DNA of 64,000 nt from Acidobacteriota bacterium. Lineage in GTDB: Bacteria > Acidobacteriota > Terriglobia > Terriglobales > Acidobacteriaceae. Location of the stretch: contig JABCZL010000015.1 of assembly GCA_013289685.1 (NCBI GenBank), positions 1 through 64,000 of the forward strand, given 5' to 3'. Made by a program: the position numbers and the translations under genes. Shown piece by piece: positions 2,513-12,461 of the stretch. The notes under the pieces were generated by a model. The model was not told where the DNA came from, searched no databases, and worked only from the letters and a program-made list of their open reading frames with translations. Numbering within the stretch: position 1 is the stretch's first letter; every line of letters starts with the position of its first letter.

Positions 2513-2908
2513 ATGTTTAACCCTCATCCCAACCTTGCCGACGAAGTGAACCGCAGCATCATCCAGTCGGAAATCGAAGGCGGCGTGTTTCTCGATGACC
2601 TGCCACCGTCCACCGTCCTTCAAATCCAGACCATGCACCACTGTTACACCGCCGTGCTTCTCGGCGGCAGCGAAGCGCTGCTCTCCGGCCATCCCGAGTT
2701 CTGTCCTGAGCCTGTGCAGGTCGCCATCGCCGGCTCCACCTGGGGAGGCTCCATGCTCAAGCTCCAGTATGTCGGCCGCGGCATGCATCTCGAATTCCGC
2801 CACCCCGAATACTCCACCCCCATCATCACCTCGCCCATCCAGGAAATTCGTGACTGCCCATTCCGCCCGCTAGAATTAGACTCCCACCCCCACGGCGCCC
2901 ACTCCTAA
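2513..2908 (+). CDS. Conserved hypothetical protein, 131 aa
   Basis: A soluble protein without signal peptide or membrane segment, not assigned to a named family. It contains SIIQSEIEGGVFLDDLPPST near the N-terminus, then TMHHCYTAVLLGGSEALLSG and a C-terminal beta-rich part ending in a Pro/His-rich tail (LDSHPHGAHS). It is divergent from hpnH across a 234-bp gap in which I see no clear promoter. The antisense frame is a shadow. The ATG at 2513 is the only good start. Confidence 0.75.
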   Translation: MFNPHPNLADEVNRSIIQSEIEGGVFLDDLPPSTVLQIQTMHHCYTAVLLGGSEALLSGHPEFCPEPVQVAIAGSTWGGSMLKLQYVGRGMHLEFRHPEYSTPIITSPIQEIRDCPFRPLELDSHPHGAHS

Positions 2909-2936
2909 ATCAAGCTTGTCATTCATAAACTCCACC

Positions 2937-3043
2937 TGTCATCCTGAGCGAAGCGAAGGACCCATGCACTTTGCTTGCAGCGACGGAGCGGCCAGTCCTG
3001 GCGAAGCTCTGTGTTCCTCCGTGCCCTCTGTGGTTAAGCTTTT
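2937..3043. repeat. Rep-A copy followed by Rep-G copy
   Basis: A short Rep-A copy without an inserted hairpin (TGTCATCCTGAGCGAAGCG to ACCCATGCA) is followed at about 3008-3042 by a Rep-G element related to CTCTGTGTTCCTCCGTGCC. Both occupy the gap upstream of the STAS gene. Confidence 0.85.
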
Positions 3044-3122
3044 TGAGTCACCGAACACTCCCATTGACTTGCCCCTCCACACCCACTACCATTCCGGCCA
3101 GCGCCCGATTGCGACCCGAACC

Positions 3123-3482
3123 ATGTCCCTCAAGATCGACACCCGCGAAGTCGCTCACGTCACCATTCTCGACATCCACGGCCGCATCGTCCTCGGCGAA
3201 GAAATCGGTGATCTCCGCGACGCCGTCCGCGCCCTAATCGCCGAGGGCAAAAAGAAGATCATCCTCAACCTCGCCGGCGTCGACTACATCGACAGCTCCG
3301 GCGTCGGAGAACTCGTCGGCAGCTTCACCACCGTCCGCAACGCCGGCGGCGAACTCAAACTCCTCAACCTCACCCAAAAAGTTCACGACGTCCTCTACGT
3401 CACCAAGCTCTACACCGTCTTCGACATCAAAGACGACGAATTCACCGCCGTCCGCTCCTTCGACTACTTCTTCGCGAAATAG
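3123..3482 (+). CDS. STAS-domain anti-sigma factor antagonist
   Basis: A 119-aa single STAS domain, like SpoIIAA/RsbV. These proteins bind an anti-sigma factor kinase and release the sigma factor when unphosphorylated. The phosphorylation-site region reads DYIDSSGVGELVG near residue 58, with the expected Ser. No anti-sigma kinase or phosphatase lies next to it, so the partner is unknown. The frame extends upstream to 2916, but that part reads through Rep-A and Rep-G. The ATG at 3123 (MSLKIDTREV) matches the usual start of the domain. Confidence 0.9.
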   Translation: MSLKIDTREVAHVTILDIHGRIVLGEEIGDLRDAVRALIAEGKKKIILNLAGVDYIDSSGVGELVGSFTTVRNAGGELKLLNLTQKVHDVLYVTKLYTVFDIKDDEFTAVRSFDYFFAK

Positions 3483-6839: not shown

Positions 6840-8105
6840 ATGTTCCCCAACCCGCACGACGCGCTCCCACTCCCTCCCCGCCCAAATCTCGAACAATATA
6901 AAAAGCTCGCCAAAGACCTACTAAAAGCCAGCCAGTCCCCGGACCCAACCGCCCTCCACACCTGGTGCGCCCGCTGGATCAAAAAAATCTCTGCTGAAAG
7001 AATCGCTGCTGAGAGGTTTGTCATCCCGAGCGAAGGGGCGATGTCGCAAAGCGACACCGCCCCGCAGTCGAGGGACCCTGTGTTCGGTTTCGACACCGTC
7101 GATCAACTGGAGAACTTCGCGCGCCACAAATTGTCGGGGACCGCAACCCTAACCGCAGCCCAATTCGTAATCGCCCGCGCCCAAGGTTTCGAAAGCTGGC
7201 CGAAGCTAGCCAAACATCTAGAAGCCGTGGCCCGCGCGAATTCCCCAGTCAGCCACTTCGAGCAAGCCGCCGACGCCATCGTCACCGGCAATGCCGCGCA
7301 TCTGGAAAAAACGTTGCACGAACATCCCGACTTGATCCGCGCAACGTCCACGCGCCGCCATCAAGCAACTCTGCTCCACTACGTCTCCGCCAATGGCATC
7401 GAAGACTACCGCCAGAAGACCCCCAACAACATCGTCAAGATCGCGAACCTTCTCCTGGGAGCTGGCGCCGAAGTCAACGCAGTAGCCGATGTCTACGGCG
7501 GAAGCACAACGCTCGGTTTGGTCGCGACCAGCATCCATCCCGAACGCGCCGCCGTCCAGGAAGCTCTGCTGCAACTCTTCCTCGATCATGGCGCAACCAT
7601 CGACCCCGCAAACTCCCCAGCCGGACCGCTAATCAACATCTGCCTGGCCAACGGCCGCGTCCAGTCCGCCGAATTCCTGTCCCAGCGCGGCGCAACCCTC
7701 GATCTCGAAGGCGCCGCAGGCCTGGGCCGCCTCGATGTAGTCAAAGATTATTTCGATGAGTCTGGCGCTCTCCATCCGAGTGCGACGCAGACGCAGCTGG
7801 AACGCGCCTTCCTCTGGGCCTCCGAATACGGCCGCAACCCGGTAGTCGATTTCCTCCTGCAACGCGGCGTCAGCCTAGAGACGCAAGCCAACACCGGCCA
7901 AACCGCCCTCCACTGGGCCGTAATCGGCGGACAAGTGGACACAATCAAACTCCTCCTCGACCGAGGAGCGTCCCTGGAAGCCAAGAATGTCCACGGCGGA
8001 ACCCCCCTAGGTCAAGCCCTCTGGTCCGCCACCCATGGCAACCCCAAAATCAACTACGCCCAAATCGCCGACCTACTCAGAAGCCACGGCGCGAAGGAGG
8101 AGTAA
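6840..8105 (+). CDS. Ankyrin-repeat protein
   Basis: A 421-aa soluble protein. The C-terminal two thirds carry ankyrin repeats, for example LLHYVSANG near 180 and GQTALHWAVIGGQVDTIKLL followed by DRGASLEAKNVHGGTPLGQA near 355-395. The N-terminal part (PRPNLEQYKKLAKDLLKA, and later FVIARAQGFESWPKLAKHLE) is a domain often found in front of ankyrins in soil bacteria. The likely role is protein-protein interaction, partner unknown. Residues 61-81 are encoded by a Rep-A copy and probably do not belong to the ancestral protein. AAAGGAG upstream supports the ATG at 6840. Confidence 0.88.
   Translation: MFPNPHDALPLPPRPNLEQYKKLAKDLLKASQSPDPTALHTWCARWIKKISAERIAAERFVIPSEGAMSQSDTAPQSRDPVFGFDTVDQLENFARHKLSGTATLTAAQFVIARAQGFESWPKLAKHLEAVARANSPVSHFEQAADAIVTGNAAHLEKTLHEHPDLIRATSTRRHQATLLHYVSANGIEDYRQKTPNNIVKIANLLLGAGAEVNAVADVYGGSTTLGLVATSIHPERAAVQEALLQLFLDHGATIDPANSPAGPLINICLANGRVQSAEFLSQRGATLDLEGAAGLGRLDVVKDYFDESGALHPSATQTQLERAFLWASEYGRNPVVDFLLQRGVSLETQANTGQTALHWAVIGGQVDTIKLLLDRGASLEAKNVHGGTPLGQALWSATHGNPKINYAQIADLLRSHGAKEE
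7019..7083. repeat. Rep-A copy inside the ankyrin gene
   Basis: TGTCATCCCGAGCGAAG at the left and CAGTCGAGGGACCC at the right identify Rep-A. The centre is a stem with one mismatch: GGGGCGATGTCGC pairs with GCGACACCGCCCC around AAA. It is read in frame as VIPSEGAMSQSDTAPQSRDP. Confidence 0.92.
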
Positions 8106-8542: not shown

Positions 8543-9811
8543 CTATTTCCTCCCCCGCAACATCTCCACCACCCGCTCATAATCATCCACCGTGTGATAC
8601 TCAATCACAATCTTCCCCTTACCCTTGCGATCCCGGATCCTCACCCGCACCCCCAGCAGCCGCTCCAAATCCAGCTGCGCCGCTCGCACATTCGGATCCA
8701 CCCACCGCGCCCCGCTCTTCTTGCGATCGACCGTCTGCCCCGGCATCCCCGGCACGGGATCAAGCAGCCCCGTCATCCGCATGATCAGCGTCTCCACCTG
8801 ATCGAGCGTCATATGCTTCGCCACAATGTAATCGGCCGTCTTCTGGATCAGGTCCGGATCCTCCAGCTTCAGCAACTCCTTCGCTTCCGAGAATCCAATC
8901 TGCTTGTGCGCCAGCTGCTCCATCACCAGCACCGGCAGCTTCAGCAGCCGCATGTAATTCGACACCGACTCCCGCGACAACCCAACTCGCTCCCCAATTT
9001 GCGCCTGCGTCAGCGAAAATTCCTTGCTCAGCACCCGGAACGCTTCCGCCTGTTCCAGCGCGCTCAAATCCTCCCGCTGCAGGTTTTCGATGATCGTCAT
9101 CTCCGCCGCCTGCTGCAGCGAAACCCGCCGAACCATCGCCGGGATCTGCGTCTTCCCCGCCTTCCTCGAGGCATGCAGCCGCCGCTCGCCGAGAATCAGG
9201 ATGTACCGACCGTCCTCCTCCGACGGACGCACCATGATCGGCTGCACCACCCCGTTCGCCTTGATCGAATCCGCCAGCTCCTCCAGCTTCTCGTCATCGT
9301 CGACATACCGCGTCTGAAACGGATTCTTGTCGATATCCGCAATCGCCAGATTGACCACCAGATTCCCCGGCATCCGCGACTCCGCCTGCGCATAAATCGT
9401 AAGGGTCTCGTTCGAAGGCGGCGGCTCGAATGTGGGGACAGCCGCCCCCGGCTGTCCAGACGAGCGCAGCTCGGCCGCTGCCGGCGCCACCGCATCTTCC
9501 ACCACAGCCTGAATGGTTCCATCAAAAGGAACCCCAGCGGCTGGCGCATGCACGTGTGGCGCGGGCACTCCCGCCCGCATGCCCGAGTCATCACCGTAAT
9601 TCCGCGAGGTAGTGTCATTCGAAATAGCTTTGTCATTCCGAACGAAGTGAGGAACCTGCTGTTTGCCGGGAGTGCCTCCACCCTGACCCGGAGCGCCGCC
9701 CACCGCCCGCGGCCCCGGCAGCAGCGACTCCAGCCCCCGCCCCAAAGCCCGCCGCTTCTCCACCTTCTCTTTCTCCCCCGCCATCTTCTCCGCCGCCACC
9801 GTGTTCGTCAT
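8543..9811 (-). CDS. parB: Chromosome partition protein ParB
   Basis: ParB is the CTP-dependent DNA clamp that loads at parS and works with ParA to segregate origins. The family N-terminus ALGRGLESLLPG is at residues 23-34. The CTPase/nuclease-like domain starts near 155 (IADIDKNPFQTRY) and includes ILGERRLHASRKAG. The parS-recognition helix-turn-helix is LTQAQIGERVGLSRESVSNY near 270-290. The C-terminal dimer domain has VRIRDRKGKGKIVIEYHTVDDYERVVEML. The protein is over 100 residues longer than typical because the linker at about 35-150 is expanded by Rep-A and Rep-E sequences read in frame. It follows parA, with 197 bp between them. Confidence 0.96.
   Translation of the reverse strand: MTNTVAAEKMAGEKEKVEKRRALGRGLESLLPGPRAVGGAPGQGGGTPGKQQVPHFVRNDKAISNDTTSRNYGDDSGMRAGVPAPHVHAPAAGVPFDGTIQAVVEDAVAPAAAELRSSGQPGAAVPTFEPPPSNETLTIYAQAESRMPGNLVVNLAIADIDKNPFQTRYVDDDEKLEELADSIKANGVVQPIMVRPSEEDGRYILILGERRLHASRKAGKTQIPAMVRRVSLQQAAEMTIIENLQREDLSALEQAEAFRVLSKEFSLTQAQIGERVGLSRESVSNYMRLLKLPVLVMEQLAHKQIGFSEAKELLKLEDPDLIQKTADYIVAKHMTLDQVETLIMRMTGLLDPVPGMPGQTVDRKKSGARWVDPNVRAAQLDLERLLGVRVRIRDRKGKGKIVIEYHTVDDYERVVEMLRGRK
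9428..9660. repeat. Rep-E, Rep-E and Rep-A copies inside parB
   Basis: 9428-9456 is GTGGGGACAGCCGCCCCCGG with TGTCC. 9553-9578 is GTGTGGCGCGGGCACTCCCG with CCCGC. 9632-9660 is TGTCATTCCGAACGAAGTG with AGGAACCTGC. All three are also found between genes elsewhere in the window; here they encode part of the ParB linker (for example QVPHFVRNDKA and MRAGVPAPHV). Confidence 0.85.
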
Positions 9812-9963: not shown

Positions 9964-10008
9964 TATATCGATAACCATCAATCTATAATATCGACGCTCA
10001 TCGATATA
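9964..10008. promoter_or_regulatory. Two 22-bp TATATCGA-type palindromes
   Basis: 9964-9985 (TATATCGATAACC then ATCAATCTA) and 9987-10008 (AATATCGACG, CT, CATCGATATA) are related to each other and to 11868-11889 and 12264-12285 in rsmG. They abut the parA stop codon. They are a possible protein-binding site; no regulator is identified. Confidence 0.5.
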
Positions 10009-10869
10009 TCAAGCGCTCTTGTCCATCTCGTCCGCGGCCTCTCCTCTGTGTTCCTCTGTGCCCTCTGTGGTTAAGTCTTGCCCTGAAGGCTGAGAGCTGA
10101 TAGCCGCCGGCTGCCTCTCAATAATCTCCTTCGCCAGCCGTATGTAACTCTCCGCCCCCTTCGACCGCGGATCGTACTCCAGCGCCGCCTTCCCGTGACT
10201 CGGTGCCTCGGCCAGCCGTATGTTCCGCGGGATCGTCGTCTGGCACAGCGTCTCCCCAAAATAATTCTTCAGCTCAGTCATCACCTGCTGCGCCAGGTTG
10301 GTGCGCTCATCAAACATCGTCAGCACCACGCCCTCGATTCCCAATGAAGGATTCAGCCCCACGCGGATCCGCTCGATCGTATCCAGCAGCTCGCTCACGC
10401 CCTCGAGAGCGAAGTATTCGCCCTGCATCGGGATCAGCACCGCGTCGGCCGCGACCAGAGCATTCAGCGTGAGCAGATCGAGCGCTGGCGGACAATCCAG
10501 CACGATGAACTGAAACCGGTCGCGCAAAGGCGCGAGCGCATCGCGCATGCGATACTCGCGCCCCTCAGCGTCGACGAGCTCGAGGTTAGCGCCGATGAGG
10601 TTCTTGTGGGCAGGAATCAGCCACAGCTGTTCCAGCTCCGTCGTGAGTAGCGCCTCCTCAGCCGAGGCCGCGCCCATCAGCAGATGGTAGGAGCTGATGC
10701 GCTCCGGGTCCTTCACGAACCCCAAGCCGCTGGTGGCGTTCGACTGCGGATCGCAATCGACCAGCAGCGTGTTCACTTCCGCAGCCGCAAACGACGCGGC
10801 TAGGTTGATGGCAGTCGTAGTCTTACCCACGCCGCCCTTCTGATTGGCAACAGCGATAACGCGTCCCAT
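10009..10869 (-). CDS. parA: Chromosome partition ATPase ParA (Soj)
   Basis: ParA is the deviant Walker ATPase that binds nucleoid DNA and moves ParB-parS complexes. The Walker A motif KGGVGKTTTAINLA is near residue 11, DCDPQSNATSGLG follows near 40, and VLDCPPALDLLTLNAL is the Walker B region. ALEYDPRSKGAESYIRLAKEI marks the normal end of the fold. The last 30 or so residues (SQPSGQDLTTEGTEEHRGEA and so on) are translated Rep-H and Rep-G sequence, so the C-terminus is probably an acquired tail. It starts at ATG 10869, preceded by a 743-bp region with four parS-like palindromes. Confidence 0.97.
   Translation of the reverse strand: MGRVIAVANQKGGVGKTTTAINLAASFAAAEVNTLLVDCDPQSNATSGLGFVKDPERISSYHLLMGAASAEEALLTTELEQLWLIPAHKNLIGANLELVDAEGREYRMRDALAPLRDRFQFIVLDCPPALDLLTLNALVAADAVLIPMQGEYFALEGVSELLDTIERIRVGLNPSLGIEGVVLTMFDERTNLAQQVMTELKNYFGETLCQTTIPRNIRLAEAPSHGKAALEYDPRSKGAESYIRLAKEIIERQPAAISSQPSGQDLTTEGTEEHRGEAADEMDKSA
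10035..10112. repeat. Rep-G and Rep-H forming the 3' end of parA
   Basis: CCTCTGTGTTCCTCTGTGCC (Rep-G) is followed by GGCTGAGAGCTGATAGCC (Rep-H). Intergenic relatives occur at about 3010 and 43906. Here they code for the ParA C-terminal tail. Confidence 0.8.
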
Positions 10870-10977
10870 GAGTTGTGAGGAGAACCAGAGCTACTGCGCA
10901 GCATAATCCGCTTCGCATTTCAAATGCAATGACGATCTGCTGTGCACGCGAGTGAATTGTGTGCAAAACAGGTCCAA

Positions 10978-10993
10978 TGTTCCCGCAGGAACA
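10978..10993. promoter_or_regulatory. parS-like site 1
   Basis: TGTTCCCGCAGGAACA, one mismatch from the perfect palindrome TGTTCCTGCAGGAACA. It lies 109 bp upstream of parA. Confidence 0.78.
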
Positions 10994-11040
10994 CTTTCTC
11001 GCATTTTGCATGGCAAAGCGGTCATGCATAAGTGAGGAAG

Positions 11041-11056
11041 TGTTCGTGCAGGAACA
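11041..11056. promoter_or_regulatory. parS-like site 2
   Basis: TGTTCGTGCAGGAACA, one mismatch from the palindrome. Confidence 0.78.
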
Positions 11057-11133
11057 TGATGTCGGTTTCGCCAAAATCCGATCCCCGACCGACGGAGTGT
11101 CTGACGCTTGAGCTCTCCAAGAATAAATCGAGA

Positions 11134-11153
11134 AGTGTTCCTGCAGGAACACT
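11134..11153. promoter_or_regulatory. parS-like site 3 (perfect)
   Basis: AGTGTTCCTGCAGGAACACT, a perfect 20-bp palindrome. The outer TGTT..AACA and the inner C/G at positions 6 and 11 equal those of the classical parS TGTTTCACGTGAAACA, while the core differs. Confidence 0.82.
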
Positions 11154-11221: not shown

Positions 11222-11241
11222 AGTGTTCCTGCAGGAACACT
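11222..11241. promoter_or_regulatory. parS-like site 4 (perfect)
   Basis: The same perfect 20-bp palindrome as site 3. Centre-to-centre distances along the cluster are 63, 95 and 88 bp. Confidence 0.82.
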
Positions 11242-11612: not shown

Positions 11613-12461
11613 TCAGTGCGGTATCGCGCGGTGGGCCACGAGCAGGACGCGGGAGCGGGATTGGGGGACTGGGATTGGGGTTGACCATTCGAGGTGGGGA
11701 AGAGTTGAGCGGGCTTGGGCTTCTTGGGCGGCGCTGATCAGCAGGGCTAGGCGGCCGGCGGGGGCGACCAGGGCGGCGGCGGCGGGAAGGATGGCGTCGA
11801 AGCGTTCGACGGCGCGGAGGGTGACTAGGTCGAAGGTGGCGGTTAGGGTTTCGGCGCGGGCGGTTTGTATATTGACGTCCGTCAATGTAAGGGCGCGGGC
11901 GACTTCGCGGAGGAAGGCGGACTTTTTGTGGTTGGACTCGATCAGGGTGAGCGCGAGGTGCGGGGCCCAGAGTTTGATGGGGAGGCCGGGGAATCCGGCG
12001 CCGGAGCCTACGTCGGCTACGGACTCGGGGGCTAAAGCCCCTGTTTCTTTTTGGCTGGTTACGCGGCCCTGAAGGGCCGCTCTTCCACTGGGGCCGACGT
12101 GGCTGGGGTCGACGTGGCCTGCGGGGTAGCGGTGGCTGGAGCTGGTGTGGCTGGCGGGGTAGAGGTGGCGGGCGGCGAAGAGGCTCTCGCCGAAGTGGCG
12201 GGTGACGATGTCTTCGGGGTCGCGGATGGCGGTGAGGTTGATGCGGGCGTTCCAGCGGAGGAGTATATCGATGTACGTCGATATACTCTGGAGTTGCGCG
12301 GAGGAGAGGACAGCAGCAGGTTCCTCACCGGCGTTCGCCGGTTCGGAATGACAAGGGGCGGGGGGTTTGGAAGGTGCGGGAGCGCTCTCGGAATGATCGG
12401 CGGCGGCGATGGGTGCGCGGAGGAAGGGGTCGAGCAACTCGGCGATGTGGGCGGTGTTCAT
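11613..12461 (-). CDS. rsmG: 16S rRNA m7G527 methyltransferase RsmG (GidB)
   Basis: RsmG methylates G527 of 16S rRNA with SAM. Conserved parts are YIDILLRWNARINLTAIRDP, the SAM site VADVGSGAGFPGLPIKLWAP, then ESNHKKSAFLREVARAL and FDLVTLRAVERFD. The usual length is about 210 aa, and here it is 282. The excess lies in a Pro/Ala-rich N-terminal stretch that includes a Rep-A copy (CHSEPANAGEEPA) and in about 45 residues just before VADVGSGAGFPG that include a Rep-D copy (SGRAALQGRV). I chose ATG 12461 (MNTAHIAELL); the longer frame to 12527 adds nothing conserved. Position next to parAB is the usual arrangement near oriC. Confidence 0.92.
   Translation of the reverse strand: MNTAHIAELLDPFLRAPIAAADHSESAPAPSKPPAPCHSEPANAGEEPAAVLSSAQLQSISTYIDILLRWNARINLTAIRDPEDIVTRHFGESLFAARHLYPASHTSSSHRYPAGHVDPSHVGPSGRAALQGRVTSQKETGALAPESVADVGSGAGFPGLPIKLWAPHLALTLIESNHKKSAFLREVARALTLTDVNIQTARAETLTATFDLVTLRAVERFDAILPAAAALVAPAGRLALLISAAQEAQARSTLPHLEWSTPIPVPQSRSRVLLVAHRAIPH
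11868..11889. promoter_or_regulatory. TATATTGACG palindrome inside rsmG
   Basis: Arms TATATTGACG and CGTCAATGTA around TC; one mismatch between the arms. It is related to the palindrome at 12261-12288 and the pair at 9964-10008. It encodes the normal RsmG segment DVNIQ. Confidence 0.45.
12027..12089. repeat. Rep-D copy inside rsmG
   Basis: GGGGCTAAAGCCCC is followed 25 bp later by GGCCCTGAAGGGCC and CGCTCTTCCAC. It is translated in frame on the minus strand. Confidence 0.88.
12261..12288. promoter_or_regulatory. 28-bp palindrome inside rsmG
   Basis: Perfect 11-bp arms GAGTATATCGA and TCGATATACTC around TGTACG. It encodes STYIDILL, a conserved part of RsmG, so it is either a DNA-binding site embedded in coding sequence or chance. 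Confidence 0.5.
12318..12353. repeat. Rep-A copy inside rsmG
   Basis: CAGGTTCCTCACC, a small stem CCGGCG/CGCCGG and GGAATGACA. It is translated in frame as CHSEPANAGEEPA. Confidence 0.85.

Follow-up and report, generated by a model that had tools for sequence, protein, structure and literature searches.

The window analysed here is a 64,000-nucleotide stretch of contig C15 of the genome of a soil acidobacterium (6.85 Mb, 48 contigs, 98.9% complete), whose nearest named relatives are Candidatus Sulfotelmatobacter and Acidobacteriaceae MAG records. Its minus strand carries rsmG (11613–12461), then parA (10009–10869), then parB (8543–9811), and the GC skew switches sign there. The rsmG gene, encoding the 16S rRNA G527 methyltransferase, is a single open frame of 282 residues whose ATG aligns with the start in many relatives. 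The product scores 128 bits against Pfam GidB, in two stretches of the same open frame, and 126.7 bits against NCBIfam TIGR00138, where the equivalog cut-off is 99.5. The coordinates and frame that the first-pass annotation had given for an enlarged RsmG are correct. In a GidB search of the whole genome this was the sole place matched, with no internal stop, and a second intact rsmG, which that annotation had set against its own reading, was not found. E. coli RsmG (1jsx) has 207 residues and the short relative L065 has 202, so the enlargement amounts to 75 to 80 residues. The features of the gene and its repeat copies, with loop coordinates derived from the translation, are as follows.

11613–12461, minus strand: rsmG, 16S rRNA G527 methyltransferase of 282 residues with two enlarged loops (TIGR00138, Pfam GidB)
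12285–12422, minus strand: N loop, residues 14–59, between LLDPF and ISTYIDI (AlphaFold2 pLDDT 58–76, blocks 21–50)
12314–12355, minus strand: Rep-A copy in the N loop, in-frame reading CHSEPANAGEEPA (iterated nhmmer model)
12018–12176, minus strand: MID loop, residues 96–148, between HFGESLF and ADVGSG (pLDDT 43–62, blocks 101–140)
12028–12088, minus strand: Rep-D copy in the MID loop, in-frame reading GRAALQGRV...GALAPE (iterated nhmmer model)
11988–12014, minus strand: SAM-binding motif DVGSGAGFP, residues 150–158 (coordinates via translation)
9630–9661, plus strand: Rep-A copy in the parB linker, antisense to parB (iterated nhmmer model)

The Rep-D copy ends a few residues ahead of VADVGSGAGFPG and the Rep-A copy lies in the N-terminal domain of RsmG, both where the first-pass annotation had placed them. 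That annotation had also ascribed about 70 extra residues to the two repeats. The size holds but the origin does not, since the recognisable repeat amounts to ~14 (Rep-A) and ~20 (Rep-D) residues, or ~34 of the ~75 extra. The remainder of residues 14–59 and 96–148 is other sequence, mostly rich in proline, serine, alanine and histidine, part of which looks by eye like local duplication.

Rep-A and Rep-D across the genome

Both families were followed with iterated nhmmer models in a sample of 61 stretches (1,209,504 bases of the genome), four of which had been picked for Y1 transposase genes. By our own, crude gene models, 31 of the 38 Rep-D copies in the sample are intergenic, 5 lie inside gene models and 2 overlap them. 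Similarly, 15 of the 17 Rep-A copies are intergenic and the other 2 lie inside gene models, namely the rsmG and parB of the window. A general preference of repeats for genes has been rejected, as repeated 15-mers make up 1.78% of the intergenic bases sampled and 0.10% of the coding ones. By eye, repeat-like peptides are seen in the ParB linker of many relatives. Within the window, a repeat copy of the TGTCATCC family lies at 7005–7079, inside the gene model 6840–8105.

Elsewhere in the same genome, two Rep-D copies lie in a gene scoring as TilS (L151:8985–10838), another in a gene scoring as RlmN, between its two Pfam domains (L142:12310–13533), and another in a MutY-like gene (L117:9438–10568), whose TIGR01084 score of 278.2 bits is just under the cut-off of 286.5. 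In this respect Rep-D resembles the intragenic GTAG/CGTC REPs of bacteria such as O. terrae, Thauera and R. conorii. According to the paper describing these, REP-encoded residues occur inside ORFs, many of which are DNA synthesis or repair genes and some RNA-modifying genes (PMC3733652). Unlike those REPs, the modelled Rep-D and Rep-A consensus sequences show neither a GTAG nor a CGTC tag by eye, and because the GTAG tag is absent from the modelled stretch, Rep-D has not been filed as a GTAG REP. An Rfam search of the window at gathering scores gave zero matches, so that neither the repeats nor the dyads described below match a curated RNA family at this threshold.

The genome contains four matches to Y1 transposases, and one of them, on contig C26, is a REP-associated tyrosine transposase (RAYT) with 114.4 bits against NF047646 (cut-off 80). 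At L106 the NF047646 gene (2890–3363) is bracketed by inverted Rep-D copies at 2874–2938 and 3508–3446, the former overlapping the 3′ end of the RAYT gene. As a whole, L106:2874–3508 has the form of a compact RAYT unit with inverted Rep-D ends. Inverted flanks were found at 4/4 Y1 genes compared with 0/300 random places, which were unmatched for gene context, and the flanks of the Y1 gene at L104 additionally contain a direct repeat. The RAYT bracketed by Rep-D is likely to be the mover of Rep-D. A Rep-A bracket was sought around all four Y1 genes of the genome and was not found, nor was a transposase beside Rep-A. For K. versatilis, T. saanensis and other Acidobacteria, RAYT/TIRYT elements have been described whose Y1 genes stand between terminal inverted repeats, and some of these repeats belong to dispersed families (PMC3733652). 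The inverted flanks at all four Y1 genes agree with that description. On the other hand, rsmG and in-frame copies in Acidobacteria are not mentioned in the available parts of PMC3733652.

The two loops in relatives

The loops were compared in 49 rsmG frames, comprising the window and 48 hand-chosen relatives. Identical copies were excluded, as were two fragments (L028 and L070) and the split gene L071. The loops were cut by motif patterns, which leaves the N value absent in 5 rows and the MID value in 4, and their DNA was compared with the 1.21 Mb sample of the window genome, in which the genome's own rsmG had been masked (E <= 0.01). Of 45 MID loops 24 matched elsewhere in the sample, and of 44 N loops 16 did so, the window included (21/45 and 28/44 being without a match). 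By comparison, control pieces of the core matched in 0/41, 2/45 and 1/42 cases (3/128 overall), and the difference between loop and core is significant by Fisher's test with relatedness ignored (5e-14 for MID, 2e-8 for N). The loop matches of L052_N, L064_N, L074_MID and L049_MID are weak, with E values of 0.002–0.009. MID loops are 14–115 residues long (median 38) and N loops 10–61 (median 16). Since 41 of the 45 MID loops, that of the window included, have at least 24 residues in open frames, an enlarged loop is the rule among the compared relatives. In more distant rows the MID loop, cut slightly differently, measures 10–18 residues in 15 of the 16 that have a value and 50 in the remaining one, L025.

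Dispersed repeats are places where assemblies break, and L031–L074 are titled as MAGs, so a misassembly or consensus error could in principle have joined repeats into rsmG. This explanation is extremely improbable, given that the inserts are in frame across the 49 frames compared, and that the window, L032 and L073, which are separate assemblies, have Rep-D at the same place and in the same frame. It is also at odds with the rarity of matches to core pieces and with the adjoining ParA, whose first 246 residues keep the same length in 39 of 44 rows, window included (ParA taken at >45% identity). The exceptions are L049 (239), L071 (249) and the short L052, L031 and L074.

The loops were labelled by peptide pattern, independently of the DNA matches, the D and H patterns having a common tail. 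Nine labels (D, H, V, S, C, R, T, W and Q) were used for MID loops and two (A and T) for N loops, besides which many were entered as "short" or "other". The MID loops of L017, L036, L039 and L041 have no DNA match. In a supported six-row clade that includes the window (98/89), the MID labels are D (three rows), S, V and T, the last of these in L017, labelled from its peptide alone. Parsimony requires at least 26 label changes for MID and 15 for N over 45 rows, and these counts are rough because 19 of the 42 tree branches are open and the labels are peptide-based. The tree omits L054, L059, L066 and L067 of the 49 rows because their loop values are missing.

In-frame insertion of repeats into conserved genes is already known for REPs and RPEs. 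According to PMC2229807, which cites Ogata 2000 and work on gmk, RPEs are short palindromic repeats that lie in frame within conserved proteins and are apparently tolerated. The insertions in rsmG are of the same kind, being in-frame repeats within a conserved protein gene, and are likened to RPEs in how they behave, not as members of that family. They differ in occurring in other organisms, in that several families alternate in two loops of one gene, and in that one family has a RAYT in the genome. In PMC3733652, recB of two Xanthomonas species carries different REPs at about the same place, and the family swapping described here is more extensive than the recB case as set out there. What is new is the succession of one family after another in two fixed loops of a single gene. 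Among open-access records, mostly titles and the beginnings of abstracts, no paper was found on dispersed repeats lying within rsmG or on altered parS sites in Acidobacteria.

Some repeat copies are closely similar between relatives. Over its 39 bases the Rep-A copy of the window is identical to that of L019 (39/39), whereas no more than 58 of the 89 four-fold core sites agree. The Rep-D copies of the window and L073 have identical arms (27/27 and 14/14) around a middle that agrees at 12 of 18 positions, and the head agrees at 25 of 27 with that of L032. One explanation is that the loops have been co-opted, in which case useful repeat peptides or mRNA hairpins (in contact with the ribosome or a partner, or in translation control) would persist and stay similar. 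However, relatives carry different repeat families, which implies that no particular loop peptide is needed, and L031, the nearest relative, differs from the Rep-A of the window at 4 of 39 positions by eye. The identity could stem from a recent insertion at that position, from gene conversion or from constraint, and as the first two account for it equally well, we regard co-option as unlikely.

Function of the enlarged RsmG

The evidence on function comes from conservation, substitution rates and structure prediction. Over 47 aligned rows, among them the window and 6 from outside Acidobacteria, 19 columns are invariant, and the window RsmG retains the SAM motif and the residues invariant among relatives. 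The dN/dS of the core, obtained by our division of the printed NG86 values, is 0.25–0.37 in 8/8 pairs with the window and 0.17–0.22 in 4 pairs of relatives. The AlphaFold2 model of the window RsmG, made from the 47-row alignment, has a mean pLDDT of 85.9. Core blocks reach 91–97, the last block 76 and the loop blocks 43–76, and stretches 108–113 and 122–136 are below 50. The model of L065 (202 residues) has a mean pLDDT of 94.8 and, compared by the order of its helices and strands, resembles that of the window. With Foldseek, the first nine PDB matches are RsmG/GidB structures, with TM-scores by query length of 0.49–0.59. The protein thus shares its fold, motifs and equivalog score with the known RsmG/GidB methyltransferases and differs in having loops lengthened to 46 and 53 residues.

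The first-pass annotation had offered two readings, one in which the enzyme is functional and shows extreme tolerance, and one in which it is non-functional, G527 methylation is lost and low-level streptomycin resistance results. The second corresponds to a decaying rsmG whose activity was abolished by the insertions. The insert does adjoin the SAM motif, and loss of rsmG is tolerated in other bacteria with modest, low-level streptomycin resistance, according to PMC10521367. Streptomycin resistance, rsmG and an insertion sequence are the subject of a Deinococcus paper (PMC9456066). In L071 (2437–3296) the rsmG reading is broken into two frames within the loop region, and a further, N-terminal piece of rsmG (L028) is present in genome G013. 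Either decay or assembly error may account for these two cases. In the window, however, the sole GidB match of the genome is an open frame with the invariant residues present and a core under purifying selection (dN/dS 0.25–0.37). In addition, the loops are modelled outside the confident core, and long MID loops prevail among the relatives. Decay is therefore very unlikely, and the non-functional reading is not upheld. As to the functional reading, conservation, dN/dS, structure prediction and the other repeats in the loops of relatives speak for function itself, but the tolerance is confined to two loops and does not extend to the whole enzyme.

Judging from sequence and predicted structure, the rsmG of the window is most probably functional. 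As relatives hold different repeats in both loops, it is very likely that the enzyme remains active, with the loops as tolerated landing pads for repeats. With in-frame loop insertions tolerated and the core kept, G527 methylation is probably retained. We propose, with a probability of roughly 0.85, that the enzyme works and that in-frame pieces of dispersed palindromic repeats are tolerated in its two least constrained surface loops. One of these loops would lie between helices 1 and 2, and the other would link the helical domain to the first strand of the methyltransferase fold. Rep-D would have arrived by transposition through the RAYT whose gene is bracketed by inverted Rep-D copies, and Rep-A by some mechanism with no named mover. 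Selection would purge out-of-frame and core insertions but spare in-frame ones in the loops, where one repeat family would later give way to another through further insertions, deletions and possibly gene conversion.

Some 48 relatives thereby form a natural series in which one well-studied enzyme carries different dispersed repeats at two fixed places. As a result, the rules of tolerance (which loop, which frame, what length and what speed of replacement) become measurable. Repeat-derived peptides in annotated proteins need not indicate pseudogenes.

Candidate DNA sites in the rsmG–parA–parB region

Apart from the repeats, the region contains two kinds of short palindromic site.

12264–12285, no strand assigned: 22-bp dyad TATATCGATGTACGTCGATATA, overlapping the ISTYIDI codons (pattern search, synonymous conservation)
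11868–11889, no strand assigned: 22-bp dyad TATATTGACGTCCGTCAATGTA, overlapping the LTLTDVNI codons (pattern search, synonymous conservation)
9964–9985 and 9987–10008, no strand assigned: two weaker dyad copies with 2 mismatches each at the parA–parB junction (pattern search)
10977–10994, 11040–11057, 11135–11152 and 11223–11240: parS-like palindromes GTGTTCC-NNNN-GGAACAC, in which other bases take the place of the usual ACGT centre

In the whole genome, the pattern TAYATYGAYGKNCRTCRATRTA at <=2 mismatches occurs only at the two places in rsmG and the two at the parA–parB junction, with 0 for the reversed control. Synonymous conservation over 45 rsmG rows points to the same places, as the top ten of 118 seven-codon windows all overlap one or other dyad (TLTDVNI 0.96 and ISTYIDI 0.83, against a mean of 0.216 and s.d. 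of 0.205). The dyad is present at <=1 mismatch in 14 of 21 genomes of the genus, 12 of which have at least one match on the rsmG contig, as placed by the rsmG search. The remaining two are G017, in which no rsmG was found, and G150, which lay outside that search. In G007 rsmG is present and no dyad was found at <=1 mismatch. Places off the rsmG contig at <=1 mismatch occur in 7/21 genomes of the genus, so in relatives the motif extends beyond the par region. In 6 of these 7 the same sequence lies within a methylmalonyl-CoA-mutase-like frame, named by eye. A class-wide draw gave the dyad at <=2 mismatches in 12 of 121 genomes, with exact copies in G000 and G013 only, both of the genus.

The dyads show the features that would be expected of a protein-binding DNA site inside a gene. 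If they are such sites, rsmG in this genus may be dual-purpose, encoding the methyltransferase and holding putative DNA sites for an origin or partition protein, with repeats tolerated only in the loops outside these sites. We consider the chances of this evenly balanced.

In many outer relatives the rsmG–parA interval contains a classic parS (TGTTTCACGTGAAACA or TGTTCCACGTGGAACA). The clade of the window, and L065 from outside it, have instead GTGTTCC-NNNN-GGAACAC-like sites with other centres. In the window genome RTGTTCCNNNNGGAACAY occurs at 13 places at <=1 mismatch, 9 of them exact, and the reversed control gave 1. The change of centre is accompanied by a change in ParB. The residue at the H of a GHAR-like motif is E or D in 14/14 rows with a non-ACGT centre and in 1/22 rows with the ACGT centre (L046), in a comparison of related rows from which 13 of 49 were dropped because the motif or the site was missing. 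The ParB G residue discussed in the literature is presumably the G of GHAR. Together, these patterns suggest an apparent shift in ParB/parS specificity, with the GTGTTCCNNNNGGAACAC sites as putative ParB targets. With regard to chromosome segregation, the dyads and the parS shift are good reasons to study the origin region of this genus. The tail of ParA carries a repeat-like LTTEGTEEHRGE, which resembles the reverse strand of the repeat labelled S.
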